Part shown: piece by piece, positions 1 through 56,330 of the stretch
How the letters are laid out: each line of letters opens with the position of its first letter
Position numbering within the stretch: the first letter of the stretch is position 1
NCBI GenBank assembly: GCA_022496805.1
Contig: CM040104.1
Coordinates: 4,687,650 to 4,751,649, forward strand
Direction: 5' to 3'
From: Pohlia nutans
Lineage: Eukaryota > Streptophyta > Bryopsida > Bryales > Mniaceae
DNA length: 64,000 bases
Program-made: the position numbers and the translations under genes
The notes under the pieces: model-generated
The model's database searches: none
Told to the model about the DNA's origin: nothing
Seen by the model: the letters and a program-made list of their open reading frames with translations, nothing else

Positions 1-545
1 TCTCCAAACACTCCAAAGTACCCCTTCTCATAAAAAGACAAATGTTTTTTGATCTATGACCATTTTGACCAATCCAACCGTAGGATATTTCAAGCAACTT
101 GAATTTATTACAACGTACAAATTTTCAACCGTTCAGGGTTCTTCAATAGTAAGATTATAAGCTTCAAAGTTGGTTGCACCTTTTTTTTTGGCATGCTGCC
201 TATATTTGAAACTTTCTGAAAATGCCGAAAATGCAAAGTTTAGTCTCAAATTTGGTAAAATGAATTTGGCAATTGTGTGCATGAGGGTGTTAGCTCATTG
301 TCTGCAAGAATTCAGATGCATAACTCATTGTATGAAAAATTTCAGGAGCTGCCCGCAGTTAGGTTTTTCACCTTTGTATGATTGTATCTTTTGATTTATA
401 CATCACCTACGTACGCAAATTACTATCCCATCTTCGTTACAAAGAGTAGAATCACCACAAAAAATCTCAAGAATTGAGGTTCAATACTCATTCCATAATG
501 AGCTGACCGAACTTAGAAAATCAGCCTTGGTCCTTGAGGGGTTAA
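1..545. mobile_element. TTAA-flanked element, right part (left end off window)
   Basis: The right end reads CCTTGGTCCTTGAGGGG followed by TTAA (542-545). Internal sequence near 85-165 resembles the interior of the elements at 13988 and 39820. No left end is in the window. Confidence 0.45.
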
Positions 546-879
546 TCAATGTTGTAGATAGAGGCTCTCGAAGACATCAATAACATGATTTGAGAGGTAA
601 GTTCATGATGATAGTGACATGAGGTAGCATGCCATGTTTATTATAAAGTTGCCATATGTCACTGGAACACTACATCCATTTTTTTCTTACAAAGACACTA
701 TATCTTCCTAAAATTTACCATCACTAAGCCACGTGTCTAGTTTATTGCTTATATATCATATGTTACAAATATATACTTTAAAAAAAATTAATCATATTTT
801 TACATGATGGTAGTATAGACGGTAAATTGAACAACAATATTATGTTGTCTCATGGCCAAATCAACAATTCTTCTTACTG

Positions 880-1118
880 ACCTCATGACCAAACCCACAT
901 TAGACCTCATGTTTTTATAGCACTTTTGAGTAAGTCCTATGTGGACGCCCTTTTGTTTAAATTTATTTGTTGATTGACCAACACATACAATGTTCTTCAC
1001 TGATTCATGTGATAGAAAACTTGGTCCTATATAAATTATTGATTTTTCACAATACGATCAATTGAATTTGACATTTTAAAATAAAACCATGAATCTTTGG
1101 TCTTTTAGAGGTTTATTA
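880..1118. mobile_element. Degenerate TTAA element, family A
   Basis: The interior matches family A (GTAGGTCC.TGTGGAC, then AACACATGCAATGTTCTTCA, then TTTTTCACAATATGAT-like blocks). The right end near 1098-1118 is a decayed TTGGTCTTTTAGAGGTTTA. The left end is eroded. Confidence 0.55.
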
Positions 1119-1373
1119 CATTATTAAGTCTAGACTTTCTACTCCTAGTAAAGTTTCCAAGATTATCTCCGATGCTCTTGAATACTCTTAGATGCTCTTT
1201 TCTTCACATCTTAAGTAATTTTTCCTTGTTTGATTTTAACTAAATTCCCTCATACAATGCCAAATGTCCTCTCTCACCATAGTTTCAAGAAAAAGTTACT
1301 CTATCTGTAAAATTCAATCCAAGCAGTAGGGGATTTGGAACCCTACTATTATAAAATGTTATGCATAACATTG

Positions 1374-1611
1374 TTAACCTCTAAAGGACCAAGAATCCCA
1401 AATTGGGCCTCATTTTTTTTAGCGATTTTGAGTAGGTCTTTTGTGGACTTTCCTCTCATTAAAATTTCTTTGTTTCTTTACCAACACATAAAATGTTCTT
1501 CACTGATTTTGATGATATAAAATTTGGTTTCATGTGAATTCTATTTTTTACAATGTGATCAATAGAATTTTTCATTTGAAAACCATGAATCCTTGGTCCT
1601 TTAGGGGTTGA
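1374..1611. mobile_element. TTAA element, family A (about 240 bp)
   Basis: The left end TTAA (1374-1377) is followed by CCTCTAAAGGACCAAGA. The right end CCTTGGTCCTTTAGGGG is followed by TTGA (1608-1611), one change from TTAA. The terminal inverted repeats and interior are shared with the other family A copies. Confidence 0.8.
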
Positions 1612-2003
1612 CCCAAGACTTTGTACCCCTACTAAAGTTTCCAAGATTCTCTCCGATGCTCTTCAATGCTCTTGGATGCTCTTTGTTTTCGCATCTTAAG
1701 TTTATCTTACTTGCTTGACTCCTACAAAATTCCCTCATAGAATGGCAAGTGTCATCTTTCACTCTAGTTTCAAGGAAAATTACTGTATTAGTAAAAGATC
1801 AACCAAGCAGTAGACGATGCGGTACCCTACTGCTAAAGAATGTTATGGTAAGCCTCAAAATTTTCCATACATCAAGAACCTCAAGGCATGTGAATATGGT
1901 GCCATGATGGTGCATTGAAATGCAATTAAGATAATTTGGTGCCAACCTCTATACCAACCTAGTATGGATAAAATGACACTAAAATGACTTGTATGCGGCC
2001 TTT

Positions 2004-2634: not shown

Positions 2635-2680
2635 TTGGTGTAAAATGGCACCAAAATAGTCTGGCCCAACTTTTCTGATG

Positions 2681-3554
2681 TACAGAGACGGACAAAACTG
2701 AATATCAATTTGAAACTTTTCCATTCAAACAACCATACCATGAGCATCAATGGGCAAAGTCCAAAAGTGAATATACAAAAGTTGTAGTGTGCGACATATA
2801 ACACATTACTACAGAAGTTTGAAGAAAAACTCAATTGTGATTTGAAAGAAAATGGATTTCAAAGTTAGCCATGTCTAAAACTCGGTTTTGTGCGATATAA
2901 TTCGAAACTACTTTAAATTTTGTCAATTTTTTCTTAGAGCTTCAAAAAAACTTTTTGTGCCTTGGCATGTTGGTATACATCATTTAAGATTGTTGTACAC
3001 AAAAATTGAAGGAAGTTGATATTTATAGAATTTAAAATATTCACAATTTGACAAACATGCAAATGATGTTGGTTCTCACGATCTTGAATTATTTTTTGGA
3101 ATTGAGAGCATGAGAGAATTGAGAGCATTGAATTCCAAAAAATAATTCAAATATCGTGAGAACCAACATCATTTGCTTGTTTGTCAAATTGTGAATATTT
3201 TAAATTCTATAAATATCAACTTCCTTCAATTTTTGTGTACAACAATCTTAAATGATGTATACCAACATGCCAAGGCACAAAAAGTTTTTTTGAAGCTCTA
3301 AGAAAAAATTGACAAAATTTAAAGTAGTTTCGAATTATATCGCACAAAACCGAGTTTTAGACATGGCTAACTTTGAAATCCATTTTCTTTCAAATCACAA
3401 TTGAGTTTTTCTTCAAACTTTTGTAGTAATGTGTTATATGTCGCACACTACAACTTTTGTATATTCACTTTTGGACTTTGCCCATTGATGCTCATGGTAT
3501 GGTTGTTTGAATGGAAAAGTTTCAAATTGATACTCAGTTTTGTCCGTCACTGTA
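2681..3554. repeat. Long near-perfect hairpin, about 423-bp arms with a 27-bp loop
   Basis: The arms 2681-3103 and 3131-3554 are reverse complements with only isolated differences (for example GAGACGG against GTGACGG at the outer edge). The spacer 3104-3130 contains two GAGAGCAT words. Minus-strand reading frames here (2610-2834, 2934-3128) are mirrored by-products of the palindrome. The structure ends about 350 bp upstream of the start codon of the gene at 3903. Confidence 0.9.
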
Positions 3555-3902: not shown

Positions 3903-6900
3903 ATGGCGAACACGATGGCAACACTACTACTGTTCACCATTCTAGGGTTTGCAGGGTTATGGCAGCAAGCGTCAGCTGAAGGTAAGCTTAATTCGTGATT
4001 TCTTAATCTGGTGAGGGTTTGTAGCACATCTAGTTTTTCTTACACGAGATTTAGGTAGCAACAGAAAAGGTGATGGAGGATACTATTCAAATATGATTAT
4101 AGGGAGATGTATAGATTTGGAGCACAAGAGCCAAACCTGCTGATGTTTATCAAATGTTTATACAATTTTAAAGCGTGAGGTTGCAACTCAAAGAAGAGAT
4201 GAGTTTAGGGTTTAGGGTTTGTAGCAGATCTAGTTCTTCTTACACGAGATTTAGGGAGCAACAGAAAAGGTGATGGAGGATACTATTCGAATATGATTTA
4301 TAGGGAGATGTATAGGTTTTGGAGTACAAGAGCTGATATCAAATGTTTATACATTTTGAAAGCGGGAGGTTGGAACTCCATGTGCTAATTGAAACGGTAT
4401 TGGAAGAGATGAGTTTAGGGTTTTAAGGTTCTGATGGTATGTATGTTTTGCAGGGTGTTTCTGGATCAGCCGATGTCAAAACCTGTGGATGGGGGGTTGC
4501 GGGAATGGCTATGTGCCCGTGGAAACCTCGAATGACTGTCAGGGCCTTTGTGCCATGCCTCAGTATCCCACTTGCCGTCCCTTCTTCACACGCTTCCAGT
4601 GTTGCAGTGAAGGTACGTCTGGTTTCCGTTCCTCCCCTGTCTTTTATGAGTCCCATGGCGATTCTCGTTAACCCCTAAAGGACCAAGAAACCCAAATTGG
4701 GCCTCGAGTATGTCCTTTTTGTTCGATTTTTAAAATTTTAATCCACACATGATTTTCACTGATTCACATGCAATGTTCTTTACTGATTTCGGTGATGTAA
4801 AATTTGGTTCCATCTGAACTATATTTTTCATAATATGATCGATTGAATTTCTCATTTTAGAACCATGAATCCTTGGTCCTTTAGGGTTTACGCAATTTAA
4901 CCAATATGTACGATCACTTTGGGTACTGCAGTAGCTAAACTCTCTTGAGATCAGATTTTTTTCACCGTATGGATTTCTTATGCCATCTCAAAGTGGGAGG
5001 TTTTAGATCACTAAGGTAGACTGCCCTTGAACAAGGTGCTGTCCTTGAATTTTTTGAAAATTGAATCAGGACCGTGTTTGGCTGATAGACAGATAAGATT
5101 CATAAATAATTTTTTTATTTAGATGAATTCTAGAAGTGGAAAAGATAGTCATATCTTACTTGTCATATAGGTGGTGTTTTTTTCTAACTGAAAAAGTATC
5201 ATGAATTACATCCTAGATGTCTCAATCTCAATTCTGTCCACTTGTAGAAACCTCTTATTGGATCACAAATGATCAGATTTAGGTTCCTTGGGTGGTGGTT
5301 GTCGAAGGCACCTACAATACGAGAGTGGGGGCTGGGCGGTTATGGGATAGTCTATCTTATAAGTAGAAGTAGAAAACCCCATTCTCATTCAAAGATCAAT
5401 GGCCATAGACATGTAGCCAAGTCATATGCTTAGAAGAGAAGTCAAAGCCAATCAAGTGTATTAGAAGGCTAATCATGTGTATTAGAAGAGATGAGTAATA
5501 GGGATTAGTATACATCAATAAACTTAGGAAGGGTCATCTTGATGTCAAAATGACATCAAAATGACATTTGCCATGGTGATGTAGGGATTAGTGCCATTTT
5601 GATGTCATTTTGATGTCATTTTGATGTCAATTTGATGTAACCTTCACATCCATGTGGTATAGGTCATTCTAATGTAAGGTTAATACGTATCATCTTTATG
5701 TTAAGTTTACATCATTTTGACTTGGGGCATGTTAAGTTTGCATCATTTTGACATCAAAATGGCACTAATCCCTATATCACCTTGTCATATGTCATTTTGA
5801 TGACCCTTTCTAAGTTTACTGATGTAGGAGATGGAATAACAGTTTTAGTAACCTCTACTTTAATTCTTTTTTCTCTAGACCAGTGTAGTGTATGTTTCAG
5901 CTTATTCTTAATTCTTGTTTCTCTAGAATGGGATAGACTAGACTAGTGGAGTGTAAGTTTCAGCTTTGAAGGACAAGTCATTATTCTTTTGGAATATCTT
6001 TCTTTGGTATCAGCTTCTTGTTGCTCTTTCCAACGTAAGGAGCTTTGATTGTGAAGCAGGCAAGGCAAGAGAAAGTACCAGCTGCAGCCGGTGTCCGAAC
6101 AAAGCAGAGTTAGGAGATGAATGGATTTGCTGTAGTGACTGCTCCGAGCCTGTTATCACTGATGCGAAGCGCAAGACCGGCTACTGTCAGACTGATGCTT
6201 ACCTCAGTTTCCAGCCAAAACCCCGCGGTGAGAATAACCTTTTTTATTACATGTAATAGAACAGTTCATAACATTCAGTAGCATGCACTGTCTCTGCCTT
6301 GGCTCTACAGTAGATGATGTGGAATATTCCACGCCCAACAATACTTCATCAGTACCTAAGTGGACAAGTGAAGGCTCAAGGTGATGAGCAAAGTGCATGA
6401 AGGAAAGGCAATGGGCATGAAGGCTACTGAATGTTATGTTGGCGTAACAAGTAACAGTTGATGTTGTTCGAAGTAGTAGCCCTAAACCCTTGAAGAAGTA
6501 ACAGTCAGTTGATGTCTGCAAATTCATTGAATTTCAAATTTCATCCCTGTTCTCTTGACACAAGCACTGAGAGATTAGGTGGCCAGTTCTTAGTGAACTC
6601 CCAATACAAATTTCATGGTCTCTTGAGAAATTTGGTTTCAATGAGTTCATTGGAAATGCTAAGTGGAGGAGTTTGATTTTCAACGAGTTTGCTAAAATTA
6701 ACTCATGCAAATTTCATCATTCTTTGTTGCAATGCTTGTTTCAATGAGTTCATTGAAACGCCAAGTGGAGGAGTTTGATTTTCAATGAAATCAACTGTGA
6801 CTCCTCCTAATGCATCATCGATGCTGGTATTGTAATGGTGGGTTCTGTATTGTATCATTGTTGCTGTTTAATAAGATTACCAATACGGCTGTACAACAGA

Positions 6901-8810
6901 GTTGTTCAAATGGAACGCTGGAGCTTGGAAGAGTTGCCAGGGTAACTGCAGAAAAGCCTCACGATCAAGGGAAGTGAAGTGCCTTCGCTATTTGGAGAAT
7001 GCTCCTCAGCTTCGTTCAGTTGTGAATGATGATAAATGTTTGGCTTCTAGCAAGGTACTTTTTCTTCATGCACTTGTTTATGAACACACATACGGTACAT
7101 GCTTGCCCACTTCATACCTGAGGCACCTTAACCCTTTGATGCGTACATATAATGGACGACCAACAGATTGTAACCTTTCTCTTGACTACATCCTGTACAG
7201 TTTTTCATCCATCCAAACTTTCCTTGGTTCTTGTGCTAGTTCACTTACCATTTGTACGGTATGGATCTTCAAGATAAGATATTGTAATTTTTTTTTAAAT
7301 GACAAAATTGGTTTATGTTAAGTTTCATTCTTAGTTCAAAAAGTGAGACCTTAACAATGATTTTCCAAAATAAGTAGAATCAAAGCATGGAAATCATACC
7401 ATCTCATACCATCTCATAGTGCAAATTCATTATAAATCTTTTTAATAAAAATTTGTTAACTTCGGATTTTAAAGTGAATTTCAAAAGAAAACTAATTAAT
7501 TAAAGAATATGATAAATTCAACCATACAGATCTACAGATTGAGATTTACAACTTTTCTTTATATAGCAACTCCATTTTTGTGATTCATTAAACATTTTAT
7601 AACACATCTTTGAAATCGGTGGTGGATCTGGACGTTCTAAGGTAACCCCTAAAGGACCAAGGATTCACAGTTTTAAAATGAAAAATTTAATTGATCATAT
7701 TGTGAAAAAAATACAATTTAGATTGGACCAAATTTTATATCACCAAAATCAGTGAAGAACATTGCATATGTTGGTCACAAAAATAAAAAAATAAAACAAT
7801 AGGAAGTCCATATAGGAACTGCTCAAAACTGCTAAATAAAACATGAGATCAAATTCATTCTTCTTGGTCCTTTAGGGGTTAAGATATTTATGGTTGTAGA
7901 CCAACAAGCAGTGCCTACTTTTTTAACCCCTAAACGTCCCAGCATCCAAAAAGTGGGTCACGAACATATTCAAAGCCTTGTAACTTTCTCATACAATCTC
8001 GAATGACTTTCATCCAAGTCACCACTGCAAGCCTATTAAATTCTCTACCAATTAAAGTAAACCTCTTGTAATGGAGAGACGTTGATAATATTGGAGAGGC
8101 CTGCAAATGCAAGTATGGCAAATTTGTTGGGTAAATTTTATGCTTGCAATGGTCCTCTCATGTACACCTCATATACATTTGAGCCATGCTAATATCTATT
8201 TTTGAGGCTCGCATCTACTTGTGTTCAAAGGATCGGTCCGTTTAGGGGTTAAGGTACTAGCATCTACTTGTGTTCAAAGGATCGGTACGTTTAGGGGTTA
8301 AGGTAGTTGAGCTTCCAGCTCTTAATATGTGGTGCTTTTTAGGGAGAATCTGACCAGAAAAAGAAGCACAGCTAACAAGAGGGGTTAAGGTAGTTGAGCT
8401 TCCAGCTCTTAATATGTGGTACTTTTTAGGGAGAATCTGACCAGAAAAAGAAGCACAGCTAACAAGAGATTTTTCTTTTTTTGTGATTCTCAGCCTCCAA
8501 GTCAAGAGCGCTGCACTCCTCAACGTTGCTTGAACGGGAGTGCCAAGCGTAAAGGGTTGCCAGTCTGGGCAATAGTGTTGATTAGCGTGACTGGTGTTGC
8601 TGCTACTGGAGGGCTGGCTTTTCTGGGTCTCATAATCTACAAAAGGTAATGTACATTTATGACACTTGATCATGTTTATGGCAATGTTTGCATTCCCATG
8701 GGTTTTTCTGACCAGATGCTGACTGTTGTGTTCGTCTGTTTCGGATGATGTGCAGGCGAACTGACGACTGCAATCATGGGTTTGTGTATGTCATGCTGGA
8801 TAACTATTGA
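3903..8810 (+). CDS. Cys-rich single-pass membrane protein with ADAMTS-type thrombospondin-1 repeat (6 exons, 255 aa)
   Basis: Exons joined in phase with GT-AG borders: 3903-3981, 4454-4612, 6060-6227, 6900-7054, 8494-8645, 8756-8810 (stop TGA 8808-8810). The total is 768 bp, giving 255 aa. Residues 1-25 are a signal peptide (MANTMATLLLFTILGF...). Residues 27-135 form a Cys-rich region with several CC and CxxC pairs, such as FQCCSEG and WICCSDC. Residues 136-200 resemble an ADAMTS-type TSP1 repeat: WNAGAWKSC..C, then R-S-R-E-V-K-C, later C-L-A-S-S-K-P and C-T-P-Q-R-C. Residues about 210-235 are a hydrophobic membrane span ending in YKRR, followed by a short tail of about 19 aa. This implies a type I topology with a disulphide-rich extracellular part. 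TSP1 repeats bind ligands or matrix glycans in animals; the plant role is unknown. Introns 2-4 are full of transposons. The exon 3 acceptor was chosen because it is the only nearby AG that keeps frame with exon 2 and continues into the Cys-rich sequence. Confidence 0.8.
4668..4891. mobile_element. TTAA element, family A, in intron 2 of the TSP1 gene
   Basis: TTAA (4668-4671) plus CCCCTAAAGGACCAAGAA at the left; CCTTGGTCCTTTAGGG plus TTTAC at the right. It lies 55 bp downstream of the exon 2 splice donor. Confidence 0.85.
5511..5826. mobile_element. Foldback MITE with TACATCA ends, intron 2 of the TSP1 gene
   Basis: Inverted repeats of about 93 bp (5511-5605 and 5736-5826) start TACATCARTAAACTTAG. 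The interior holds tandem ATTTTGATGTC words (5592-5640), so the whole unit can fold into one hairpin. Confidence 0.75.
6267..6438. mobile_element. 172-bp MITE with CATAACATTCAGTAGC ends, intron 3 of the TSP1 gene
   Basis: The ends CATAACATTCAGTAGC and its inverse GCTACTGAATGTTATG bound the unit. A second, inverted and diverged copy is at about 24243-24410 inside a family A element. The minus-strand frame 6204-6527 is a shadow of this repeat. Confidence 0.75.
7128..7645. mobile_element. TTAA element, family E, intron 4 of the TSP1 gene
   Basis: The left end is TTAA (7128-7131) plus CCCTTTGATGCG. The right end GGACGTTCTAAG is decayed, with GTAA at 7642-7645. The interior is shared with 41569-41994, including a TTCATYRAACATTTTATAA block. 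Confidence 0.65.
7642..7882. mobile_element. TTAA element, family A (reverse orientation)
   Basis: Left end GTAA plus CCCCTAAAGGACCAAGGA; right end TTGGTCCTTTAGGGG plus TTAA (7879-7882). It abuts the family E copy, sharing the target tetranucleotide. Confidence 0.85.
7923..8252. mobile_element. TTAA element with CCCCTAAACG ends, intron 4 of the TSP1 gene
   Basis: TTAA (7923-7926) plus CCCCTAAACGTCCC at the left; GGTCCGTTTAGGGG plus TTAA (8249-8252) at the right. Its right end is copied twice more by the adjacent tandem duplications. Confidence 0.8.
8211..8466 (+). repeat. Two adjacent recent tandem duplications at a transposon end
   Basis: Segment A, about 45 bp and containing the element right end, occurs at 8211-8256 and again at 8260-8305, with one C/A difference. 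Segment B, 87 bp, occurs at 8293-8379 and 8380-8466, with one G/A difference. B also starts at the AGGGGTTAAGG terminus. The block ends 27 bp before exon 5 of the TSP1 gene. Confidence 0.85.
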
Positions 8811-9573: not shown

Positions 9574-10343
9574 CTTCCTTCGTCCCACAAAAAGACCTTG
9601 TTTTCATCGAAATCCATGGATTAACCCCTAAAGGACTATAAGGCCCTCATGTGGCTTTTAGAACTAGAAAGTGAGGAAATTCAAGTTCTTGGGCTTTGAA
9701 TTGTTGGATGAGCAACAAAATGACCTTGGCCGTATTTGAGAGCTGACTCTGTAGGTACTTCCTAATTGGAAATTCAGGAAGTGCGATTTTTGGTGATTTT
9801 TTTGAGTTGCAAAGAGGCTATCTAGGTGTCACTTCAGACCCTCATATCTTCCTCCTCACACATCCAAATTACGTGAATTTTTTTGCACAAGTTTAAAATG
9901 ATGATCTCTACGCACAGTAAAAATTTCAGAAATTTTGGAGCAGTTTTGCACAATCGATTTCAGCATATGTACAAAATACTTCGAATGAGTTCTATCAATC
10001 TTCTCAATGGTGGCATTTTCTCAAAAATTGTGCGATTTTGTCGATCCTTTTTTCATACAAAAGCTACATAAGTCTTCTTTAATTTCAACAGCGCCGATCG
10101 TTAAAATTACCCCACACCAATGAGGAATTGAACTTGTACAAGAGCTAGTCAAGAAAACAAAATAGCCAAGTTCAACAACATATTAGGGTTAAGTTGCCAG
10201 CATTGTTTGCAATATCGTGAAGCACCTGTCAAGTGCGTGCGAAACTTAATTGCTGGCGGTGAATGAGTACAATTGAAAACCATAGTTTAATTTTGGGACA
10301 TAATTTAAGATGATATCATGGTCTTTTCGTAGGACGGAGGGAG
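9574..10343. mobile_element. Stowaway-like MITE interrupted by a TTAA element
   Basis: The left end CTTCCTTCGTCCCACAAAA follows TA and the right end GGACGGAGGGAG precedes TA, as in Stowaway/Tc1-mariner MITEs. Relatives without the insert are at 17078 and 53701. The insert occupies 9621-10192. Confidence 0.8.
9621..10192. mobile_element. TTAA element, family B (about 570 bp), nested in a Stowaway-like MITE
   Basis: TTAA (9621-9624) plus CCCCTAAAGGACTATAAGG at the left; a shortened ATTAGGG plus TTAA (10189-10192) at the right. The interior matches 11688-12271 and 12268-13641. Confidence 0.85.
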
Positions 10344-11687: not shown

Positions 11688-12271
11688 TTAACCCCTAAAG
11701 GACCGGGGGGGGGGTTTAGCTTAGCTCTTGTTTTCTTGACTAGCTCTTATAACAAGCTCAATTCCTCGTTGGTGTGGGTTAATTTTGACGATCGGCACCG
11801 TTGAATTTAAAGAAGACTTACGTAGCTTTTGTATGAAAAAAGGATCAACAAAATCGCAATTTTTTTGAGAAAATGCCACCGTTGAGAAGATTGACGGAAC
11901 TCATTCGGGGTATTTTGTACATATGCTGAAATCGGATTGATCAAAAGTGCTCCAAAAATTCTGAAATTTCTACCATGCATAATTATCATCATTTTGAGCA
12001 TGTGCAAAAAATTTCACATAATATGGAGGTGTGAGGAGGAAGATATGAGGGTCTCAAGTGACACCCAAATAGCCTCCTTGCAGCTCAAAAAAATCACAAA
12101 AAATCGCACACTTCATGAAATTTCGATCAAGAAGTACCCACGGATTCAGCTCTCAAAAAGAACTAGGGTCTCTTTGTTGCTCACCTTACAATTCACGCCC
12201 CAACAACTCGAATTTCCTCACTTTCTAGTTCCAGAAGCCGCGTGGTGGCCTCGTGGTCCTTTAGGGGTTAA
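11688..12271. mobile_element. TTAA element, family B, complete (584 bp)
   Basis: TTAA (11688-11691) plus CCCCTAAAGGACC at the left; GTGGTCCTTTAGGGG plus TTAA (12268-12271) at the right. A G run follows the left TIR. It is inverted relative to the copies at 9621 and 12268. Confidence 0.9.
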
Positions 12272-13641
12272 CTTCTAAAGGACCATAAGGCCCCTACACG
12301 GCTTCTGGAATTAGAAAGTGAGGAAATTCGAGTTTTTGGGCATTGAATTGTAGGATGAACAACAAAGAGACCTTGGCTCTTTTTGGAAGCTAAATCTGTA
12401 GGCACTTCTTGACTGGAAATTCATGAAGTGTGCGATTTTTGGTGATTTTTTTGAGTTGCAAAGAGGCTATCTAGGCGTCACTTCAGGCCCTCATATCTTC
12501 TTCCTTACACCTCAAAATTAAGTGATTTTTTTTCACATGTTTAAAATGATGCTATCTACACATAGTAAAAATTTCAAAAATTTTAGAGCACTTTTGAACA
12601 ATCCGATTTCAGCATATGTACAAAATACCCCAAACAAGTTCCATCAATCTTCTCAACGGTGGCATTTTCTCAAAAATTGTTTGATTTATGTTGATCCTTT
12701 TTTTATACATAAGCTACATAAGTCTTTTTTAACCCTTTAGTGCCTAGGGTGGTTCTGGAGAAACCAGTCTTTTGGGTGATATATTTTTTAAACTTTCTCT
12801 CTTGAAATTAGGAATGCTATCAATAGTATTCAACCGTATCAATATAAGCATAGCTTAATGAAACAAGTTTTGGTTAAATCTTGGTCAGATCAGACCGTTG
12901 GATTGAAAGATTATAGTATGTCTTTGAACCGTATAATGCACACTCCAAAATGAGATTTTGAGGGGTGTGTGACTTCAAAGTTAAATAGAATTTTGGTTAA
13001 ATTTTCAAGAATGAAAGTGAAGCAGTTCAGCAATGACCTATGTCAACACCTCTCCATTGCAATCTTTCATGTCAAGAACTGACTCACACATAATTATTGT
13101 GAATTTTATAAGTGAGAGTGACTTATCTATGTACGGTTTAAGACAAAATTTATACGTTAAAATAAGAAAGGATTTGGTACATTGATCAAGATCGGAATAC
13201 ATACATTGATGGAACATAACCAAGAGAACACAATCCAAAAATAAATACAAGATAACAAACTTTCAAATACAAGAAATACCGCATAGTACATGTGTTGTAT
13301 TTGTAAGTATTTGCTGTATTTTGAGGTATTTGCAGTATTTTGGTGTTTTGAACATAGGTATTTGGATATCTAAGAAAGTCAAATTTCAAAATTTCTTTTT
13401 GCATCATCTGCATAATCAAAAGTTACACTTCTGAACTTCAAACACCGAACTAAGATAGTTCACAGATTTTACAGCATTTCATTTTTCGATGATCTAGTGA
13501 CCACTTACTGGTTACCTAGGCACTAAAGGGTTAATTTCAATAGTGCCAATCGTCAAAATTACCCCATATCAATGAGGAAGTGAGCTTGTTGCAAAAAAAA
13601 CACGAGCTATTGTCAACACCTCCCAGTCCTTTAAGGGTTAA
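12268..13641. mobile_element. TTAA element, family B, interrupted by a family C element
   Basis: TTAA (12268-12271) plus CTTCTAAAGGACCATAAGG at the left; CAGTCCTTTAAGGG plus TTAA (13638-13641) at the right. The interior continues across the insert 12729-13534 exactly as in the intact copies. It shares its left TTAA with the preceding element. Confidence 0.88.
12729..13534. mobile_element. TTAA element, family C (806 bp), nested
   Basis: TTAA (12729-12732) plus CCCTTTAGTGCCTAGGG at the left; CCTAGGCACTAAAGGG plus TTAA (13531-13534) at the right. The interior is shared, inverted, with 15044-15853. CCCTTTAGTGCC resembles ends known from animal piggyBac elements. Confidence 0.9.
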
Positions 13642-13987: not shown

Positions 13988-14592
13988 TTAACCCCTAACG
14001 GACCAAGTGTCCTGACAAGTACATTTCAATGTTTGGGTAGGTTCCCATGGTTTGATTTTGATTTTGATTTGATTTTGATTTTGATTTTGATTTTGATTTT
14101 ATTTTTTTGTAAAATAAATTATGTGAATTTGGTATATCAATAAAAAAAAATGGGGATTTGATTTTTTTTATTTCAAATTTTTAAGCAGAAGTTATGGAAC
14201 AAAAGGGGTTTTTTGGGGGAGAATAAGCAGTGCAGGCAGGGCTCAAAATAAACCTCAAAAATTATTATTTTTCAACTCTAACTGTAGGATCTTGTTTTAG
14301 ATTACCAAGAGAGTGCATGGTAAAATTTTCATAGAATTTGACCATACAGATTGCAAGATTATAGCGTTTGAAGTGAAAAGATGAAATTGCAGTCTTTTTT
14401 GATATTTTATGACTGTCTTTGAAGACATGGAAAAAATTGTTTAAATTGGTCAAAAAAATTCTTAAATTTTATTAAAATTTTTAATTTGGTATTCCTATCA
14501 AGAGCAAAAAGAAAGATTCACAAGAAAATGAATAGAAAGAGGTGAAAATGATGCTCAAAAAAAGGAAAAACCCACAGTCTTTTAGGAGTTAA
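13988..14592. mobile_element. TTAA element, family G (605 bp), nested in a dispersed repeat
   Basis: TTAA (13988-13991) plus CCCCTAACGGACCAAG at the left; GTCTTTTAGGAG plus TTAA (14589-14592) at the right. It contains a (GATTTT)n run at 14053-14100. The flanking host repeat is uninterrupted at about 50455-50655. Confidence 0.8.
14053..14100 (+). repeat. GATTTT microsatellite
   Basis: About eight copies of GATTTT with one shortened unit, inside the family G element. Confidence 0.9.
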
Positions 14593-15043: not shown

Positions 15044-15853
15044 TTAACCCTTTAGTGCCCAGCTGACCACATTATGGTCACTACAACGTCCGAAATGCAA
15101 ATAGCAGAGAATCCGTGAAGAATTGGAACTTCAGTTTTGAAGTTCAGATTTGCCCATATACATTACACACCTTCCAGAAAAAGAAATTTTCAATTTGGAA
15201 TTGTACAACTATCAAAATACCTATCAACAGAACGCAAAATACTGCAAATACTTGAAAATAAAGTAAATACTTACAAATACAACACATGTATTATGCAATA
15301 TTTCTTGTGTTTGCAAGTTTGTTATCTTGCTTTATTTTTTTGGATTGTGTTCTCTTCTTCATCTTCCATTGGTGTGTGTAATCCGATCTTGACTAATGTA
15401 CCCACTCCTGTTAATTTTCAACGTATAAAATTTTGTCCTAAACCGTATATGGATAAGTCACTTTCACTTATAAAATTCACAATAATTATGTGTGAGTCTA
15501 TTCTTGATATGAAAGATTGCAAGGGAGAGGTGTTGACATAGGGCATAGCTGAACTTCTTTCCTTCCATTTTTGAAAATTTAACCCAAATTCTATTTAACT
15601 TTGAAGTCACACACCCCCCAAAATCTCATTTTTGAGCGTGTATTATACAGTTCAAATACATACTATAATTTTCCAATCCCACCATTGGATGATTCTCAAA
15701 TTTTAATAAAATGTGTGCTCTCCAGTTGAGAATAGAATTGTACGGCTACTTCCTAATTTAATCCATTCTATTTCTGGTAATCTCAATCACAGTAGAAAAA
15801 TCCACTGAAATCCAGTGCTCCCAGCTACAGTACCCTGGGCACTAAAGGGTTAA
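15044..15853. mobile_element. TTAA element, family C (810 bp)
   Basis: TTAA (15044-15047) plus CCCTTTAGTGCCCAGC at the left; CTGGGCACTAAAGGG plus TTAA (15850-15853) at the right. The 134-codon frame 15137-15541 lies in its non-coding interior and is not conserved as a protein in the sister copy. Confidence 0.9.
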
Positions 15854-16568
15854 CCCCTAAACGCCTGGGAGGCCAAAATCATGCTTATGAATGTAACTCA
15901 CTATTCAATTCCAACTCTTGCATGCATGATTTTCATCCAATTTTTTTGTGAAGGAATTTTCTTGGTCATGCTACCCCTTCAAGTTAAATTCAGATCATTC
16001 AAGCTATTTTTTTATTTTTACATAGGATCCCAACTACAAAAAGAGTCGTAAAAATGGTTCACCGTGTAGTGTATTTTGGATTCTTTTGCTTTATTTCTTA
16101 AACTAAATTTAGGCCATGAAAATGAATTCTATTGCATTTGACTTGAACTAAAAAAATGAAGCTTGCTAATTCACTTTGAATTTTTGAAAAACTCTAAAAA
16201 TTGAGTGTTTTATTGCAATTACAAGTTCGGTGGGTATTACCATGGTGTAGCAAAAAAAAAAATTTAGATACACAGTTGATTTTCATTTACTAAACTTTTC
16301 TTCATTGTGATTTACACCTCTGGTAACAAAATCGGAATTTTTGAGTACATTTTTTAATTGATATGAGTTTTCTTTACAATCACTTCAAAAAATCATAGTA
16401 ATTTCAAATTTTCACCAAAACTTATGAAAGAATCATGATTTTTAGTAGACACGTGGTTTCATCTACTAAAAATATAAAGTTGAATTCTTGTATTATTTTT
16501 AGTGGCAAAATTGAGTGTGACACGTAAGGCATGATTCCATGGTCATAGGCCCGACCGTTAGGGGTTAA
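15850..16568. mobile_element. TTAA element, family H (719 bp), abutting family C
   Basis: The left TTAA (15850-15853) is the right TTAA of the previous element and is followed by CCCCTAAACGCCTGGG. The right end CCGACCGTTAGGGG is followed by TTAA (16565-16568). The interior is AT-rich with no open frame of note. Confidence 0.85.
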
Positions 16569-17450: not shown

Positions 17451-18466
17451 TTAACCCCTAAGTGACCAAACAAACGTCTTATGATTGTTGCCCTTTTTTC
17501 CCGGGGAAGTCACTGTCAAGAATTTAGATAACTATGAGAGAACAAATATAGGGTGTCTTTTATTCATTTGAGATAAAAAATTATAAATTTATAGAAGTAA
17601 TATAGGGTGTTTTAAAACCAAATTGAGAATATTCTAGAAATATTCCTAGAATATATGGAATATACCCTAAATATACTAGAAATAGTAGAATATTCCAATT
17701 ATTTCATGGCCCCCCATTAAATACTCTTTGTACGCTCATATGTACCCAAAATTTACACTAAGTGACTTCCCCGAGCCTTTTTTAACAGGTTTTCTAAGAT
17801 GAAAAAATATATCTTTATAAAAAAATAAAAAATATTTATAAATAGGAAATCAAGTCTATTTTCCAACAAATTTGAATCATGTCAATCTGAATTAAACTCC
17901 ACCGAGGAGAATGTTTTAGAGACAAACACCTCAACATTGTTCTAGTGTTATAAAACTTACTATTTTGGGAAAGTATGATGTTCTCTCCTTTCGAAATTCT
18001 ATGGGAATGTAGCTTCATGCATGCGTGATCCAATTAGAAAGGGGATGATTTGTGAAAATTTTATGCCTCATTTCATGTTGTAATGATTCACCAAAAATTT
18101 CAAAGATTTTAGTCTAAATGTGTTCTTGAAAAAATAAACTCATAAATAAAGCAACCAAAAGATCTCCCAAAATCACTACACTTAGAGTATTACATTTCAT
18201 CCCATCACACCAAATTTCGTACATAGATTGTCAATATCTTATTCATAGTTGAATTACAAAATAATTTTAAATGTCAAGTTTCAAATTTTATACAAAAATA
18301 TTGGTGATAGGAATCGTAGATCTAACCAGATGGATATAATCTAAAATCTATAATGGACAACTTTGATTCATACATCAAGTTCAAAATATCCCTTTTAGTT
18401 GCATTTTATGATGTATTTTTGCTAAACTGCCGAATTTGGAAAGGGGTGAGGACATTTAGGGGTTAA
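17451..18466. mobile_element. TTAA element (about 1 kb), probably family D with a nested MITE
   Basis: TTAA (17451-17454) plus CCCCTAAGTGACC at the left; GAGGACATTTAGGGG plus TTAA (18463-18466) at the right. The right 650 bp match the family D interior in reverse. About 17500-17776 looks like an insertion bounded by CGGGGAAGTCACT and AGTGACTTCCCCG. Confidence 0.75.
17500..17776. mobile_element. MITE with CGGGGAAGTCACT ends
   Basis: The inverted ends CGGGGAAGTCACT (17502-17514) and AGTGACTTCCCCG (about 17760-17773) match elements at 23741-24005 and 31382-31722. Confidence 0.6.
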
Positions 18467-37193: not shown

Positions 37194-37224
37194 TTGAAAC
37201 ATAGAAATGTATTCAATTACTTTG

Positions 37225-41568: not shown

Positions 41569-41994
41569 TTAACCCTTTAACACACCTCCATCCACATAGT
41601 AGACAATGAACAAATTCAGATTATTCTCATGACTACATACATGAACAATTTTCATCCATCCAAATTTCTCTTGGTTCTTATGCTAGTTGACTATCATTTG
41701 TACAATACGGATCTCATACCATCTCATAATGCATGTTATTCCAAATTCATTACAAAAATAAAAATAAAAATAAAAATTGTTAATTTGGGATTTTTAATTG
41801 AATTTCAAAAGAAATACTTTAAATTTTAATAAAATTTTATTAATAAAACTTATAATAAATCCAACTATACATATGCAATCTTCACATTGACATTTAAAAC
41901 TTAGCTTTGTACATCAATTCCATTTTTGTTATTCATCGAACATTTTATAATGCATCTTCAAAATCAATCTTGAATCGGGACGTTAAAGGGTTAT
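41569..41994. mobile_element. TTAA element, family E (426 bp)
   Basis: TTAA (41569-41572) plus CCCTTTAACACACC at the left; GGGACGTTAAAGGG plus TTAT (41991-41994) at the right. The interior is shared with 7128-7645. Confidence 0.75.
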
Positions 41995-42274: not shown

Positions 42275-43137
42275 TTAAACCCTAATTGCCCAACAGTCCA
42301 TATTCTGGATGATGTACAAAAATCTCAAAATAACATGATTGGGCAAAATCTCAAGGAATTATGCATAGTCAAATTTTACTTGATTTCAGGATATACAATT
42401 TTTTGACGTGTATGTCTCACTTAATATTGACTACTTTAATCCCTAAAGATCCTCACATATTTTTTAAAAGTCAAAGCACTACAATTTGCATACTAGAAAA
42501 AGAACAATGTATGATTCATAATTTTTCATAGACACTCATCAACATTATGGTCGTACGACAAAAATTTCAACATAAATGGAAGATATTTTAAATATTTACA
42601 AATTTTATCATGTAAAAAAAATACAAATTCAAAATAACTAAATTTTGTAAAATTTAATATCTAAGTTATACTTAAGGTAGATAATTGTTATGTTTCCAAG
42701 TAGTTAAAAAATGAAAGTGAAGAAATTAAAAGAGACGCATAATTGGAGCATCCTTAGAAAACCCTTTGTATTTCGGACACTCAAATTTCAGATTTCTTGA
42801 CGGTGTAAAATTTTCAAACGAAGTTTATTCTCCAATTCCAACCGTCAAAAAAAATGTATCATAACTTAACTTAAACATTTAATAAAAACACCAAATCCAA
42901 CAAAGCTAAAACACTTGATTTTTTGGGCCGTTGACCAAAATCCATTCAAAAACCATCCAAAAAATGAGTAGTTGGACGTTTAGGGGTTAAGAAACAAACA
43001 GCTCCAATACATGGCTTGGGAAATTTTGGAGTGGATGGTTTATTTTATTTTTTGCTAAAAACATCATTTTGCACTAAAAATGCAAATTTTTGATCCATCA
43101 CAACCCTAGGAGGGCCACTTGGTCCTTTAAGGGTTAA
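42275..43137. mobile_element. TTAA element, family I, interrupted by another TTAA element
   Basis: TTAA plus ACCCTAATTGCCC at the left; CTTGGTCCTTTAAGGG plus TTAA (43134-43137) at the right. Its two halves are collinear with the intact copy at 44781-45339. Confidence 0.8.
42436..42990. mobile_element. TTAA element (555 bp) nested in family I
   Basis: TTAA (42436-42439) plus TCCCTAAAGATCC at the left; GTTGGACGTTTAGGGG plus TTAA (42987-42990) at the right. Confidence 0.85.
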
Positions 43138-44784: not shown

Positions 44785-45339
44785 ACCTTAAACGTCCAGG
44801 TTTTTCCCTCATTTCTTATCACCATTCACAACTTTTTTTTCATTCTTTTACCATTCTAGTGTACACCAAAATGAAGCAAAATATGTAATTTGTTGCCTTA
44901 ATTGATAAATTAACAAAAAAGAAATGCATTGCTACAAAGTAAGTCATCAAAAAGTGCTCATGAGACCATTTTTTGGTTTTGGTTCAATTTGGATGATTGG
45001 ATGAATCTAAAAATTTAAAGTTTAAAAAGTAAACCAAGAATTGCTCATTCAACTCATTTTGAAAGATTTTTTTTTTTAAACTAAAAAAAAATGGACAAGA
45101 CCTCATGGAATTATGCATCGTCAAAGTTTAGTTGACTCGAGGATATGCAATTTTTTTGATGTGTGTATGTCACTTAATACTAATTGATTTTAAGAAATAA
45201 ACAACTTCAATAGATGGATTGGGAAATTTGGAAGGAGGTGATATTTTACTCTTTGCTACAATCATTATTTTGGAGCTCAAAATATCATTTTTTAAACCCA
45301 ATTAGCACTAAGAGGGCCACTTAGGCATTTAAGAGTTAA
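44781..45339. mobile_element. TTAA element, family I, uninterrupted (559 bp)
   Basis: TTAA (44781-44784) plus ACCTTAAACGTCCAGG at the left; CTTAGGCATTTAAGAG plus TTAA (45336-45339) at the right. It serves as the empty-site reference for 42275-43137. Confidence 0.8.
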
Positions 45340-45635: not shown

Positions 45636-46124
45636 GAAATGGTTAATCATCTTTTGCTCAAAAACAAAAACTAAGAAATTCATTTTTTTGAGGAACGAAC
45701 CTTATTTTTCAAAAAATATTAACCCTTAAACGTCAAGGTAAGCCCCATGGGCTTAGTAAAAAGAGAATAATGAAGAAAAAAGTGGATTTTCTCAACCAAA
45801 TCAAGCGAGGATTGGTGCGTTGGAAAGCTACTGAAAAAACGATCTAGATTCCAAATTTGCGCCTCATTTGAAAGATTGTGGAATCGTTGGTAAGCAATCA
45901 AAGTTATCAAATTGAACAAGTTTTGAGGTTGGGGCAGCTGAGGTTCAGCAGTTCAGCAGTGCTACAGTGCTGCCCAGCAGAGCCATTTTTACATTTTTTA
46001 TTTATTTATTTATTTTCCTCCAAAAATTTAGATGCCTTGCGGGCTGCCCCGCCCAGGCCCTCTTGACGTTTAAGGGTTAAGTATTTGTTCGTGGGGTGGC
46101 GACCCAGCTATGGTACTACGGTAG
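45636..46124. mobile_element. TACCGTAGTACCATAG-family MITE, 5'-truncated, interrupted by a TTAA element
   Basis: GAGGAACGAACCTTATTTTT at 45690, then the insert 45719-46080, then GTATTTGTTCGTGGGGTGGC and CCAGCTATGGTACTACGGTA at the right end. Confidence 0.8.
45719..46080. mobile_element. TTAA element (362 bp) nested in another MITE
   Basis: TTAA (45719-45722) plus CCCTTAAACGTCAAGG at the left; CTCTTGACGTTTAAGGG plus TTAA (46077-46080) at the right. The interior contains CAGCAGTTCAGCAGTGC and a TTTA run; it is a different family from A to I. Confidence 0.9.
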
Positions 46125-46477: not shown

Positions 46478-47058
46478 TTAATCCCTGAGCGTCCTCACCC
46501 CTGTTTAGATTGGGCAGTTTTGTAAAAATGCAACTAAGAGGGATATTTTGAACTTGATGTACGAATAAAAGTTGTACGTAATGAATTTTAGATTTTATCC
46601 ATACAGTTAGATCTGCAATTGCTATCACCAATATTTTTTTATTAAAATTTGAAACTTAAAATTCAAAATTATTTTGTAATTTGATTACGAATAGGATATT
46701 GAGATTTTGTGGATGAAATTTGTTGTGATGGGTTGAAATGTAATAATCTGAGTGTAGTGCTTTTTGGAGTTTTTTTGGGGTTGCTTAATTTTATGAGTTT
46801 ATTTTTTCAAGAGCACTATTAGACTAAAATCTTCGAATTTTTTGGTGAAACACTGCAACATGAAATGAGGCATAAAAGTTTCACAAATCGTCCCCTTTTT
46901 AATTGGATCACACATGCGTGAAGCTAACTTCCATAAAAAATTCGGTAAAAAATCCACCATTCCAAAAAGTGCATGACTGATGAGAAAACGGAGTTTGCTT
47001 TTGTACATCAAGCAAAAAAATGCTTGGTTGGGTAGTTAGGGGCCCGGTTAGGGGTTAA
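46478..47058. mobile_element. TTAA element, family D (581 bp)
   Basis: TTAA (46478-46481) plus TCCCTGAGCGTCCTCACC at the left; GGCCCGGTTAGGGG plus TTAA (47055-47058) at the right. The interior is shared with 44284, 49166, 55662 and, reversed, with 17820-18466. Confidence 0.85.
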
Positions 47059-48018: not shown

Positions 48019-48566
48019 TTAACCCTTTAACGTCCCAATTCAACATTGTTTTCAAAGATGTGCTATAAAATGTTTGATGAAACCCTAAAATGGAGTAAAT
48101 GTACAAAGAAAACTTGTAAATGTCAATGTGAAGATCACATCTGTACAGTTGGATGCATCATATTTTTTATGAATTTTTTTAAATTTAATTTTGAAAGGTT
48201 TTCTCTTGAAATTCAATTAAAAATCCCAAATCAACACAAAAAAAATTCAAAAAATTGTTATGAAATTGGAATAACATGCCCTACGAGATGGTATGGTTTC
48301 CATTATTTGATTCTACCTATTTTGGAAAATCATGTTTGAGGTCTCACTTTTTAAACTAAGAATGAAACTTGACATAAACCGATTGTGCTATTTTTCTAAA
48401 AATCATAATAACCTATTTTGAAGATCCAAACCGTTCAAAGAATAGTCAACTTGCACAAGAACCACGAGTAATTTTGGTGGATGAAAAATGTCCAATCTGG
48501 ATGAGATCCGAACAGCTTCAATCTGTTCGTCGTCCAATACAGGACGATGGCGCGCTAAAGGGTTAA
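48019..48566. mobile_element. TTAA element, family E-like (548 bp)
   Basis: TTAA (48019-48022) plus CCCTTTAACGTCCC at the left; GATGGCGCGCTAAAGGG plus TTAA (48563-48566) at the right. The 97-codon frame 48046-48339 is interior sequence with no motif. Confidence 0.85.
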
Positions 48567-49165: not shown

Positions 49166-49741
49166 TTAACCCCTAAACGTCCTCATCACTGTCCAAATTC
49201 ACTAGTGTTGTAAAAATGCATTATAAAATGCAACTAAGAGGGATATTTTGAACTATGTGAATAAAAGTTGTGCATAATTATGAATATGAAATTCTATCCA
49301 TACGGTTAGATTTGTGATTGCTATCGCCAATATTTTTGTATAAAATTTGAAACTTGAAATTCAAAATTATTTTTTAATTCATTTACGAATAAGATATTGA
49401 CAATTTGTGAATGACAAATGTTGTGATGGGTTGAAATGTAATACTCTATGTGTAGTGATTTTTGGAGATTTTTTGGTTGTTTAATTTTATGAGTTTATTT
49501 TTTCAAGATCTCATATAGACTAAAATCTTCAAATTATTTGTTGAATCACTGTAACATGAAATGATGCATGATGTTTTTACAAATCATCCCCTTTTAAATC
49601 AGATTAGACATGCATGAAGCTAACTTCCTATAAAATCTACCATAAAAATTTCACGGTACAAAAAAATCACCACGGATGAAAAAACCGTAAGTGATTATGT
49701 ACATCAAGCGTATTCTGTTTGGTTGGGCAGATATTGGTTAA
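49166..49741. mobile_element. TTAA element, family D (576 bp)
   Basis: TTAA (49166-49169) plus CCCCTAAACGTCC at the left; a decayed GGGCAGATATTGG plus TTAA (49738-49741) at the right. Confidence 0.8.
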
Positions 49742-53700: not shown

Positions 53701-54319
53701 CTCCCTCCGTCCCGCAAAAGACCTTGTTTTCACTAAAATTCATGAATTAAGCTTAATACATGATTACAAAGGGAGCACCGTAGTACTATAGCTGGGCGCC
53801 AAAATGTATTTAAAAAAATAAAAAACGTAAAAAAAAAAAAATTATGAGGACCAAAAAACATAAATAGAATAAATTAGTTTTAGCTACATTTTTCTATTTC
53901 TAACCACTTTGGGCCATTTTGGACCATTTAAAAAAATTGCTCAAAAACAAAAACCAAGAAATTCATTTTCTAAGGAATAAACCTTATTTTTTAAAATTAT
54001 TAAATATTTGTTGATGGGGTGGCGACTCAGCTATGGTACTATGGTATGTTGTTTGTGATCTATATCCATGGATTAAGTGTGTACAAAGGGAGTATTTTGA
54101 TTGCCAGAAAGTGTATACATGACCAAAATCCATGACAATAACCCGCATGATCAACATGACTATGGATTAAGGTGCCACATTGTTTACAATGCCATGAAGC
54201 AGTTGTCAAGCAGGCGCGAAACTTAATTGCCAACTGTGAATGAGTATAGTTTTAAATCATGGATTTGTTTTGGAACAAAATTAAAGTCGATATCATGGTT
54301 TTTTGTGGGATGGAGGGAG
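53701..54319. mobile_element. Stowaway-like MITE interrupted by a second MITE
   Basis: TA plus CTCCCTCCGTCCCGCAAAAG at the left; GGGATGGAGGGAG at the right. It contains the site GGATTAAGGTGCCACATTG, uninterrupted here but split by a TTAA element in the copy at 9574. Confidence 0.8.
53776..54046. mobile_element. TACCGTAGTACCATAG-family MITE nested in Stowaway-like MITE
   Basis: CACCGTAGTACTATAGCTGGG at the left and CTATGGTACTATGGTA at the right with the standard interior blocks. Confidence 0.8.
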
Positions 54320-54804
54320 GAAGTTTTATGGGAACACTTGTAATCAAATTACGGTGAAACATTGTGTAGTACCCTTGGCAACTACAGTAGCCTACATATC
54401 AGATTCATGGAAGATTGCAGCCAAGTAAAGAGTACTATGCCCTCTATAACATGATAGAATGCATGAGATATCAGCACAAGCTCTTAATTGTTGTTTTGGC
54501 GGGAAATTTGGAAATGCATATTTTAATGATAATCAAAAGTCTGGGACTTCAAATTAGACAGCATTTAACATTTGCACACATGAGATTAGCTGCTGAAAGG
54601 ACAAAAGAATGGAACCTCTCATCAAGAGGGTTGTGATCATGGCTTATTTGAATTGTTATACAAGGACGTTGAAAAATAAATAAATTTTGTTGCAACCAAC
54701 CCCCCGCCCCCCTTTTCGCCTTGTTTAATGGTAAACATAATTAGCAATGAAAATAATGTTTTACTACAATGATAGAGAAAAATCCATAACTTTGTTCATA
54801 CTTA

Positions 54805-55167
54805 GGGCCGCTTCACACTATGGCTGTCCAAGTCGAGAGGCCGTGGGATTGAGTGGCCAAACTTTGTTGAGAGTCCAAATAAATCTACTGAAAATAGGCA
54901 ATAAAATATAGTTTTCATTTTTTATAAAAAGAAATCGACGGCCTCTCGACCATAGTTTGGGTTTCCATTCCCGTCTGACCCAAACTTCCTTTCGAGAGGC
55001 CGTCACCTTGGTCAAAAAGTGTTGCCATGTAAGCATTTTGGAGGGCGATGGCCTTTGGACTTTGGCCTCTAGTGTGAAGGGTCGAGAGGCCGAACTCTTG
55101 GTTTTTTGCAATCCGATTGGTAGAAATTGACGGCCTCTCGACCTTCGGCCATAGTGTGAAGCAGCCC
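54805..55167. mobile_element. Harbinger/Tourist-like MITE with GGGCCGCTTCACACTA ends and GAGAGGCCG array
   Basis: GGGCCGCTTCACACTA at the left and TAGTGTGAAGCAGCCC at the right, flanked by TTA on both sides (54802-54804 and 55168-55170). The interior has five CGAGAGGCCG words, three forward and two inverted. The minus-strand 139-codon frame here is repeat shadow. Confidence 0.85.
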
Positions 55168-55661
55168 TTAATGTATATACATCCAAAATGGACCGTGCCT
55201 CAAAAGTGACCCCTACAATTGGACCCAAAAGCAACACTAAAACTTAGATATTGATTGTACAAGATGTACAGATGCATAACATAGGAGCTTTTGAGAGCCT
55301 AGGGTTAATTTTTTTAATTTTTAATTTTCAATTTTTTGTGAAACAAGAGGATGAAACCCCATTGAATTAATGAAGGTCGTAAACATTGAAAGCCAGAGAA
55401 GACAAGCCTCCCTGGCGAGAATATTTAGATTTTCAGACAACAATCATGAATTTAAAACTACAACCAGACTAGAAAGGCCTAGTAGAACTGGCTAGGATTC
55501 AGACAAGCCAAATGCCATGTAATTGTGTCCTCAATCCAAAGACCTGAGTTTTAAATCACAAGGTATCAAACCTCGCCAACCTAGGGTCAAATTTGGGCAC
55601 ACCTATAAACAATATTTTGAAAAATTCACAACATATTTATATGGTGTTCAAATAGTGCATA

Positions 55662-56330
55662 CTAACCCCTAAATGCCCCGCTAAATGCCTACAACCTTAT
55701 TCAGATTTGGAGAATTGCAAAGATGCATTATAAAATGCAAATAAGAGGGATATTTTGAAATCGATGTATGAATAAAAGTTGTAATTTATGTTCCAATGGC
55801 CCTTTGTCTGGTGGGTACTAGGTCATTAACATTACGAACAAACACTTTATTCACGCCGGCCTTGAAAGAGGCTAGAGTTTCTATCTATCTATACATTATG
55901 AGTTTTAGATTCTATCCATACGGTTAGATCTATAATTGCTATCACTAATATTTTGTATAAAATTTGAAACTCAAAATTCAAAATTCTTTTGTAATTTGAT
56001 TACAAATAAGATATTGACAATCTGTGAATGAAATTTGTTGTAATGTAATACTCTAAGCGTGGTGATTTTTTGAAGATTTTTTGGCTGCTTAATTTTATGA
56101 GTTGACTTTTTCAAGAGCACTTTTGAACTATTTTGAACTAAGGCTTTAATTTTTTTTGGTGAATCACTGCAACATGAAATGAAGCATAAAAAGTTTACAA
56201 ATCACCCCCTTTCTAAGCGATTCACACAAGCATGAAGCTAGCCTCCCATATAATCTATAGTAAAAAATCCACAATACAAAAAGTGCACGATGGATAAGTA
56301 AACGTGTCAATAAGACCCAACAAAAATAAT
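55662..56330. mobile_element. TTAA element, family D, carrying a dispersed-repeat insertion
   Basis: CTAA plus CCCCTAAATGCCCCG at the left. The interior is as in the other family D copies, interrupted at 55791-55893. The right end is not clear, so the end coordinate is approximate. Confidence 0.6.
55791..55893. repeat. Dispersed ~105-bp repeat with 3' stem-loop (copy 4), inserted in family D
   Basis: GTTCCAATGGCCCTTTGTCT, CACGCCGGCCTTGAAAGAGG, TTTCTATCTATCTATA. The family D sequence AAAGTTGTA..CATTATGA is continuous on either side, as in the uninterrupted copy at 44393. Confidence 0.8.

Follow-up and report, generated by a model that had tools for sequence, protein, structure and literature searches.

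The stretch of DNA analysed here (64,000 bases, 35.4% GC, without N; hereafter the window) comes from a likely plant host and is densely populated by short inverted-repeat elements, most of which are flanked by TTAA on both sides and have CC at their tips. These elements are, in all probability, piggyBac-type miniature inverted-repeat transposable elements (MITEs) that were moved by transposases of the piggyBac superfamily, whose genes are predicted to lie elsewhere in the genome. Fifty-four ends were found, of which 45 have TTAA and at least 10 of 13 matches to the end motif CCCYTWARNGNCC and nine have one TTAA base changed and at least 12 of 13 matches; clustering by similarity places the 54 ends in 27 clusters. 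Both ends are resolved in 23 elements (Table 1), which range from 216 to 1366 bp, the longest containing a nested element, and which together cover 11,072 bp, or 19.7% of bases 1-56,330. An earlier note on this DNA had counted about 30 elements, which is a fair figure if partial copies are included, and had held that they form much of the non-genic DNA, which here amounts to about one fifth of that interval. The window also contains genes. VARLMGL/DUF761-motif proteins are known from plants, and the one encoded at 61114-63219 thus makes a plant host likely; its relatives in the protein collection reach 74% identity. An exon at 6875-7318 encodes a thrombospondin type 1 domain (PF19030, E 1.9e-5), which is unusual in seed plants, and its gene seems to contain introns. 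Elements A2, A3 and E2 lie in putative intron-containing gene models that were read by eye.

TTAA and the element tips occur together far more often than composition predicts. TTAACCC is present 23 times and GGGTTAA 22 times in the window, against dinucleotide expectations of 5.1 and 4.9; TTAA alone is under-represented (517 observed, 694 expected). The 13-base motif CCCYTWARNGNCC, scanned on both strands with a threshold of at least 11 of 13 matches, has 104 sites, and TTAA lies directly 5' of 42 of them. Simulation of 20 Markov windows gave a mean of 47.95 motif sites per window and a mean of 0.35 sites with TTAA. The motif was written from observed ends, which makes the motif-site count partly circular; TTAA lies outside the motif. 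TTAA occupies both flanks of 17 of the 23 elements. Both the TTAA flanks and the CCC-type ends reported in the earlier note are therefore borne out by these counts.

Insertion sites provide direct evidence of what is duplicated. For each of 26 candidate pairs of ends, some of them alternative pairings of one end, the flanks were joined with one TTAA and matched to the window, and an empty site was counted where a match of at least 100 bp crossed the junction to an uninterrupted repeat copy. Such sites exist for B1 at 10020-10137 in Da and 11864-11751 (minus strand) in Db, which are sister copies of Dc; for D2 at 56705-56601, 25240-25341, 53942-54046 and 37328-37227; and for H1 at 45128-45229, inside H2 (junction 45190). 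In the alignments, a single TTAA is present at the junction in all seven empty copies and filled copies have the form TTAA-element-TTAA. These empty copies are other copies of three target repeats within the window, not alleles. TTAA duplication on insertion of B1, D2 and H1 is thereby shown directly, which agrees, within the window, with the expectation that the duplicated tetranucleotide is TTAA. Weak, short or one-sided hits of A1, B2, G1, J1 and K were left uncounted, as were one 25-base B1 hit, self-matches, and weak hits of candidate pairs N and O. No A+T preference was found in the target flanks of 13 of 18 elements with TTAA on both sides (0.681, compared to 0.695 for all TTAA). The D2 target is a member of a repeat family whose inverted ends read TGGCGACCCAGCTATGGTACTACGGTA and which occurs at 25240-25341, 37227-37328, 53942-54046 and 56601-56868.

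The length of the target-site duplication (TSD) bears on PIF/Harbinger (Tourist) MITEs, whose 3-bp TTA/TAA duplication plus an extra base could be read as TTAA. Plant Tourist MITEs have a TAA/TTA TSD (PMC10004981; this and the other papers cited here are drawn on in part). A PIF/Harbinger origin nevertheless has almost no probability. The TSD is 4 bp long and its fourth base is fixed: TTAA makes up 42 of the 48 NTAA flanks of motif sites, A4 has TTAT on both sides, and the seven empty sites carry TTAA with no free fourth base. CCC..GGG termini are symmetrical only with a four-base TSD, and a 3-bp TSD is at odds with four-base TTAA on both sides of 17 of the 23 elements.

Kolobok is the other well-known TTAA-duplicating superfamily and could in principle have supplied the mover. 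Its TTAA TSD is common to the elements here, and it is known from plants sensu lato, namely a chlorophyte and rhodophytes (PMC9587614). Kolobok termini are 5'-RR..YY-3' (PMC9587614), whereas a two-purine (RR) start occurs in 0 of 46 tips of the 23 elements and CC occurs at 19 of 23 left tips and 19 of 23 right tips. A palindrome near bp 25, described below, also has a documented piggyBac counterpart (PMC7351741), in a comparison made with piggyBac only. We thus consider Kolobok-type MITEs very unlikely, and the misfit of their termini disfavours the alternative that the earlier note had named.

Typical ends in the window are CCCCTAAAGGACC, CCCTTTAGTGCC and CCCCTAAACGTCC. MITEs of the piggyBac/TTAA type have a TTAA TSD and terminal inverted repeats (TIRs) of 12-19 bp that start with CC[C/T]T (PMC2872659). 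This rule is satisfied strictly only by ends such as CCCT; CCCC ends have C in the fourth position. A 4-bp TSD with CC..GG termini is common to piggyBac and IS1380 (PMC10045372), and the left end of G2, CCCTTTAACGTCC, matches the TIR of the coral piggyBac AmiPB1, CCCTTTCCCGTCC (PMC2872659), at 11 of 13 positions. Over 13 bp, the two TIRs of an element in the window agree at 6 to 13 positions. The tip of T. ni piggyBac is of the CCC type, as are the elements here.

A third feature, absent from the earlier note, is a subterminal palindrome. Palindromes of differing sequence were read by eye at the same place in A6 (GCCCA-AAT-TGGGC), at the left ends of B2 (GACCA-CATTA-TGGTC) and D2 (AAGCCC-CAT-GGGCTT), both on axis 25, and at the end at 42279 (TCCA-TATTC-TGGA). 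An axis scan of 45 ends has its maximum at bp 25.0 from the tip, where 0.441 of arm positions are complementary (mean of 144 axes 0.265, standard deviation (SD) 0.032; rank 1). Rank 1 is retained without the five family A left-end (LE) ends (0.425 at axis 25), and the best axis is unchanged with four other arm ranges. Cluster averaging was used because the effect of shared ancestry had to be limited; the mean over the 27 clusters is 0.428 versus 0.267, which is again rank 1 of 144 axes and was reached by 0 of 2000 column permutations. Two control sets show no peak at axis 25: it ranks 25 of 144 for 38 motif occurrences that lack a preceding TTAA and 17 of 144 for 838 TTAA occurrences not followed by the motif. 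The controls exclude anything lying within 60 bp of a TTAA end, and also flanks that agree with TTAA at three of its four bases. Of 18 elements compared at axis 25, 12 have ends whose scores are at least two matches out of six apart, a count made without a null model; matches out of six are 5 and 1 for B2, 1 and 4 for B1, 6 and 3 for D2, and 3 and 5 for A6. Individually the palindromes are short and imperfect; what stands out is the position that they share, and only a fixed-axis test reveals it. In piggyBac, the palindrome bound by a dimer of the C-terminal zinc domain (CRD) occupies bp 17-33, with its centre at bp 25 (PMC7351741); the piggyBat palindrome spans bp 19-30 with an axis at 24.5, and its right end lacks a palindrome (PMC11707139). 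The MITE ends as a set thus keep piggyBac spacing though their palindrome sequences differ, and we infer that the axis-25 sites are putative CRD binding sites of unseen transposases.

Several observations weigh against a piggyBac assignment. A perfect TTAA pair is lacking in 6 of the 23 elements: A1, A2, A3 and G1 have one flank changed by one base, A7 has neither flank intact, and A4 has TTAT on both sides, through a rare insertion at a site other than TTAA or through parallel mutation. Several TIRs are degenerate, with 6-9 of 13 matches, and a 56-bp match related to J1 near 50516, which was uncounted as an empty site, has TCAA. The palindrome was spotted by eye before testing and is not present at every end (axis-25 scores are 0/6 and 0/6 for J1, and 2/6 and 0/6 for C2), while G2 and J1 fit axis 24.5 better. 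The longest perfect hairpin within bp 14-45, with a free axis, did not separate ends from random windows, and the palindrome claim is tempered because of that negative search. No clear second axis emerged from the scan as a counterpart of the internal repeat in the right end of piggyBac; the runners-up, 56.5 (0.326) and 51.5 (0.325), lie about 2 SD above the mean. Direct searches for an enzyme were also negative: two transposase query pieces gave no tblastn hit in the window better than E 2.8, and no transposase family is among the Pfam matches of 13 window stretches, a scan that was not exhaustive. Within this coverage, the absence of a transposase from the window is as the earlier note had stated. 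The enzyme expected for piggyBac is a DDD transposase of the DDE_Tnp_1_7 type (PF13843). None of the elements is long enough to code for a complete transposase, a protein of about 580 amino acids in bee elements (PMC10140906). An Rfam search of the window gave no match, and a 30-base family A end pattern had no match in viral_contigs, a non-plant collection that says little here.

With no transposase found, the enzyme is unproven, and a third or undescribed TTAA superfamily (Sola3 or a new one) with convergent piggyBac-like ends could have moved the elements. Sola3 has a TTAA TSD. Sola is also tabulated in Ceratopteris (PMC6890710). We regard this explanation as unlikely, given that CC..GG termini with a 4-bp TSD are shared by piggyBac/IS1380 (PMC10045372) and that the palindrome axis agrees with the piggyBac axis, in a comparison with piggyBac rather than Sola3 ends. 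Because the end signals match piggyBac, piggyBac-type enzymes are the likely movers. A TTAA TSD and a CC-type TIR were both found, so that the two features on which a piggyBac reading was originally based hold, and the bp-25 palindrome of the end set, which is no formal criterion, adds a third.

Interiors of the elements indicate several families. For families A, B, C and D, at least two copies per family can be aligned, at about 78-85% identity: family A copies have a mean pairwise identity of 79.8%, B1 and B2 are 78% identical, C2 and C4 82%, and Da is 85% identical to Db and Dc. Because copies are only about 78-85% identical, these families do not look like very young bursts. Further interiors are suggested by D2, E1, E2, G, H and J, although alignments of G1 with G2 (69%) and of H1 with H2 (63%) are too weak to call each pair one family. 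The suggestion of at least seven unrelated interiors is likely correct; its multi-copy part stands for A, B, C and D, and the remaining interiors have been compared in part. Three pairs of ends adjoin via one shared TTAA (12267/12272, 15849/15854 and 44780/44785), and C1 seems, by eye, to contain another inverted-repeat element.

These features suggest how the elements would have moved if the enzymes resembled known piggyBac transposases. The core domain of a transposase dimer would hold the tip and the first ~16 bp, and the paired CRDs of the dimer would grip the bp-25 palindrome of one end. A CRD grip at one end would produce the left-end/right-end (LE/RE) asymmetry known from piggyBac. The element would be excised with its flanking TTAA via a TTAA hairpin and would then join a new TTAA. 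Elements also inserted at TTAAs that border other copies, which gave rise to abutting pairs and nesting. Several transposase lineages with differing CRD specificity are likely to have driven the families, because one axis is shared by palindromes whose sequences vary from family to family. A more tentative proposal, which we put forward at somewhat less than even confidence, is that several piggyBac lineages radiated, each with its own CRD specificity, and that the MITE families may record these specificities as differing palindromes on an invariant axis.

Table 1. Elements resolved at both ends in the window, with flanking tetranucleotides (left/right) and TIR matches over 13 bp.
Feature	Position	Strand	Details
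A1, family A MITE, 230 bp	1378..1607	+	TTAA/TTGA; TIR 12/13; palindromic (LE-type) end left
A2, family A MITE, intronic (gene model by eye)	4672..4887	+	TTAA/TTAC; TIR 12/13
A3, family A MITE	7646..7878	-	GTAA/TTAA; TIR 13/13; LE-type end without palindrome (lost)
E2 MITE	7927..8248	+	TTAA both flanks; TIR 11/13; tandem duplicate after right end, to 8297
Da, family D	9625..10188	+	TTAA both flanks; right TIR degenerate, 6/13; B1 empty site at 10079
Db, family D, inverted	11692..12267	-	TTAA both flanks; TIR 13/13; B1 empty site at 11808
Db/Dc junction	12268-12271		Db adjoins Dc; shared TTAA
Dc, family D, split by B1	12272..13637	+	TTAA both flanks; TIR 9/13; 85% to Da without B1
B1, family B MITE, 798 bp	12733..13530	-	TTAA both flanks; TIR 13/13; nested in Dc at TTAA; two empty sites
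J1 element	13992..14588	.	TTAA both flanks; TIR 9/13
B2, family B MITE, 802 bp	15048..15849	+	TTAA both flanks; TIR 13/13; adjoins E1, one shared TTAA
E1 element, 711 bp	15854..16564	.	TTAA both flanks; TIR 9/13
C1, probable family C	17455..18462	.	TTAA both flanks; TIR 11/13; putative end pairing
A4, family A MITE	19971..20186	+	TTAT both flanks; TIR 11/13
A7, decayed family A copy	23123..23340	+	flanks mismatched; TIR 8/13
A5, family A MITE	26263..26494	-	TTAA both flanks; TIR 13/13
A6, family A MITE	27072..27301	-	TTAA both flanks; TIR 11/13; right-end palindrome GCCCA-AAT-TGGGC
G1 element	41573..41990	+	TTAA/TTAT; TIR 10/13
H1 element	42440..42986	.	TTAA both flanks; TIR 10/13; within sequence related to H2 interior
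H2 element	44785..45335	-	TTAA both flanks; TIR 8/13; adjoins family C end at 44780, one shared TTAA
D2 MITE, 354 bp	45723..46076	+	TTAA both flanks; TIR 13/13; four empty sites
C2, family C	46482..47054	.	TTAA both flanks; TIR 8/13
G2 element	48023..48562	-	TTAA both flanks; TIR 10/13; right-end palindrome CGTCC-TGTATT-GGACG, axis 24.5
C4, family C	49170..49737	.	TTAA both flanks; right TIR degenerate, 7/13; 82% to C2

Other repeats occur among these elements. A SINE-like (short interspersed nuclear element) repeat of ~100 bp, GGCCCTTTGTCTGGTGGGCAC...GAGTTTCTATCTATCTAT, mostly with a TCTA tail, was recognised by eye at 28281-28375, 32218-32310, 43520-43610 and 55793-55892; of these, the one at 55793 apparently sits within a family C element. 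Two elements, at 30962-31255 and 47474-47809, carry TIRs that resemble each other around ACCGTAC...GGAAGGCAGGGTCGGCA; these TIRs are 34 bp (94%) and 29 bp (100%) long, respectively. A very large palindrome at 2670-3565, with 428-bp arms at 97% and a 40-base spacer, is not a TTAA element. A hairpin element at 38946-39094 starts with CACTACTAGAAAA, has 56-bp arms at 96% and looks CACTA-like.

TTAA elements of this kind are already known in plants, because earlier papers name piggyBac in plants and as a plant MITE superfamily; within the literature searched, the novelty lies in these particular families, in how dense they are at this locus and in the presence of the axis-25 signature in a likely plant host. 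The identification of piggyBac in plants is stated in passing (PMC10813416; PMC10140906), PiggyBac is one of seven angiosperm MITE superfamilies in a review (PMC10004981) and is named among plant superfamilies elsewhere (PMC10794571), and 1230 PiggyBac copies (122,417 bp) are tabulated for Ceratopteris (PMC6890710). The main text of a MITE survey of 207 plant genomes, as far as drawn on here, does not contain 'piggyBac' or 'TTAA' (PMC12550479). A land plant genome dominated by TTAA/piggyBac MITEs was not reported among the matches listed, subscription papers being mostly outside their scope. The earlier statement that neither piggyBac nor Kolobok is described as a dominant MITE class in land plants should thus be qualified: piggyBac has been named in plants, and the dominance seen here applies to the window.

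If piggyBac-type MITEs make up about one fifth of a likely plant locus, TTAA elements can form a conspicuous part of plant genomes and may escape pipelines that lack this class. With the bp-25 palindrome, superfamily membership could be tested even where no transposase is at hand, and the palindrome predicts where the C-terminal domain of the enzyme would bind, which would turn orphan MITE ends into testable sites. Should the lineages have radiated as proposed, the palindrome would be a readable key for matching a MITE family to its transposase and would open a way to piggyBac tools of plant origin.

Comparison with known systems places the elements closest to piggyBac in their ends. Plant PiggyBac entries in reviews and annotations, in the parts drawn on, give a category name or a small count and describe neither ends nor families. 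Kolobok T2-type MITEs are alike in their TTAA TSD, whereas their termini are RR..YY (PMC9587614) and those here are mostly CC..GG and never RR. Acropora CMITEs, which belong to the piggyBac/TTAA MITE superfamily, are alike in short size, TTAA TSD, CC[C/T]T TIRs and the presence of several families (PMC2872659), and the abutting copies here recall CMITE tandem arrays (PMC2872659). The elements described here differ from CMITEs in their plant-like host and in that abutting pairs join different or inverted elements; the sequence likeness rests on one TIR. Compared to T. ni piggyBac and Myotis piggyBat, the palindrome sequence varies here by family, there is no clear right-end internal repeat, no transposase gene was seen in the tested window stretches, and the host is likely a plant; shared features are TTAA duplication, a short TIR and a palindrome near bp 25 at one end (PMC7351741; PMC11707139).

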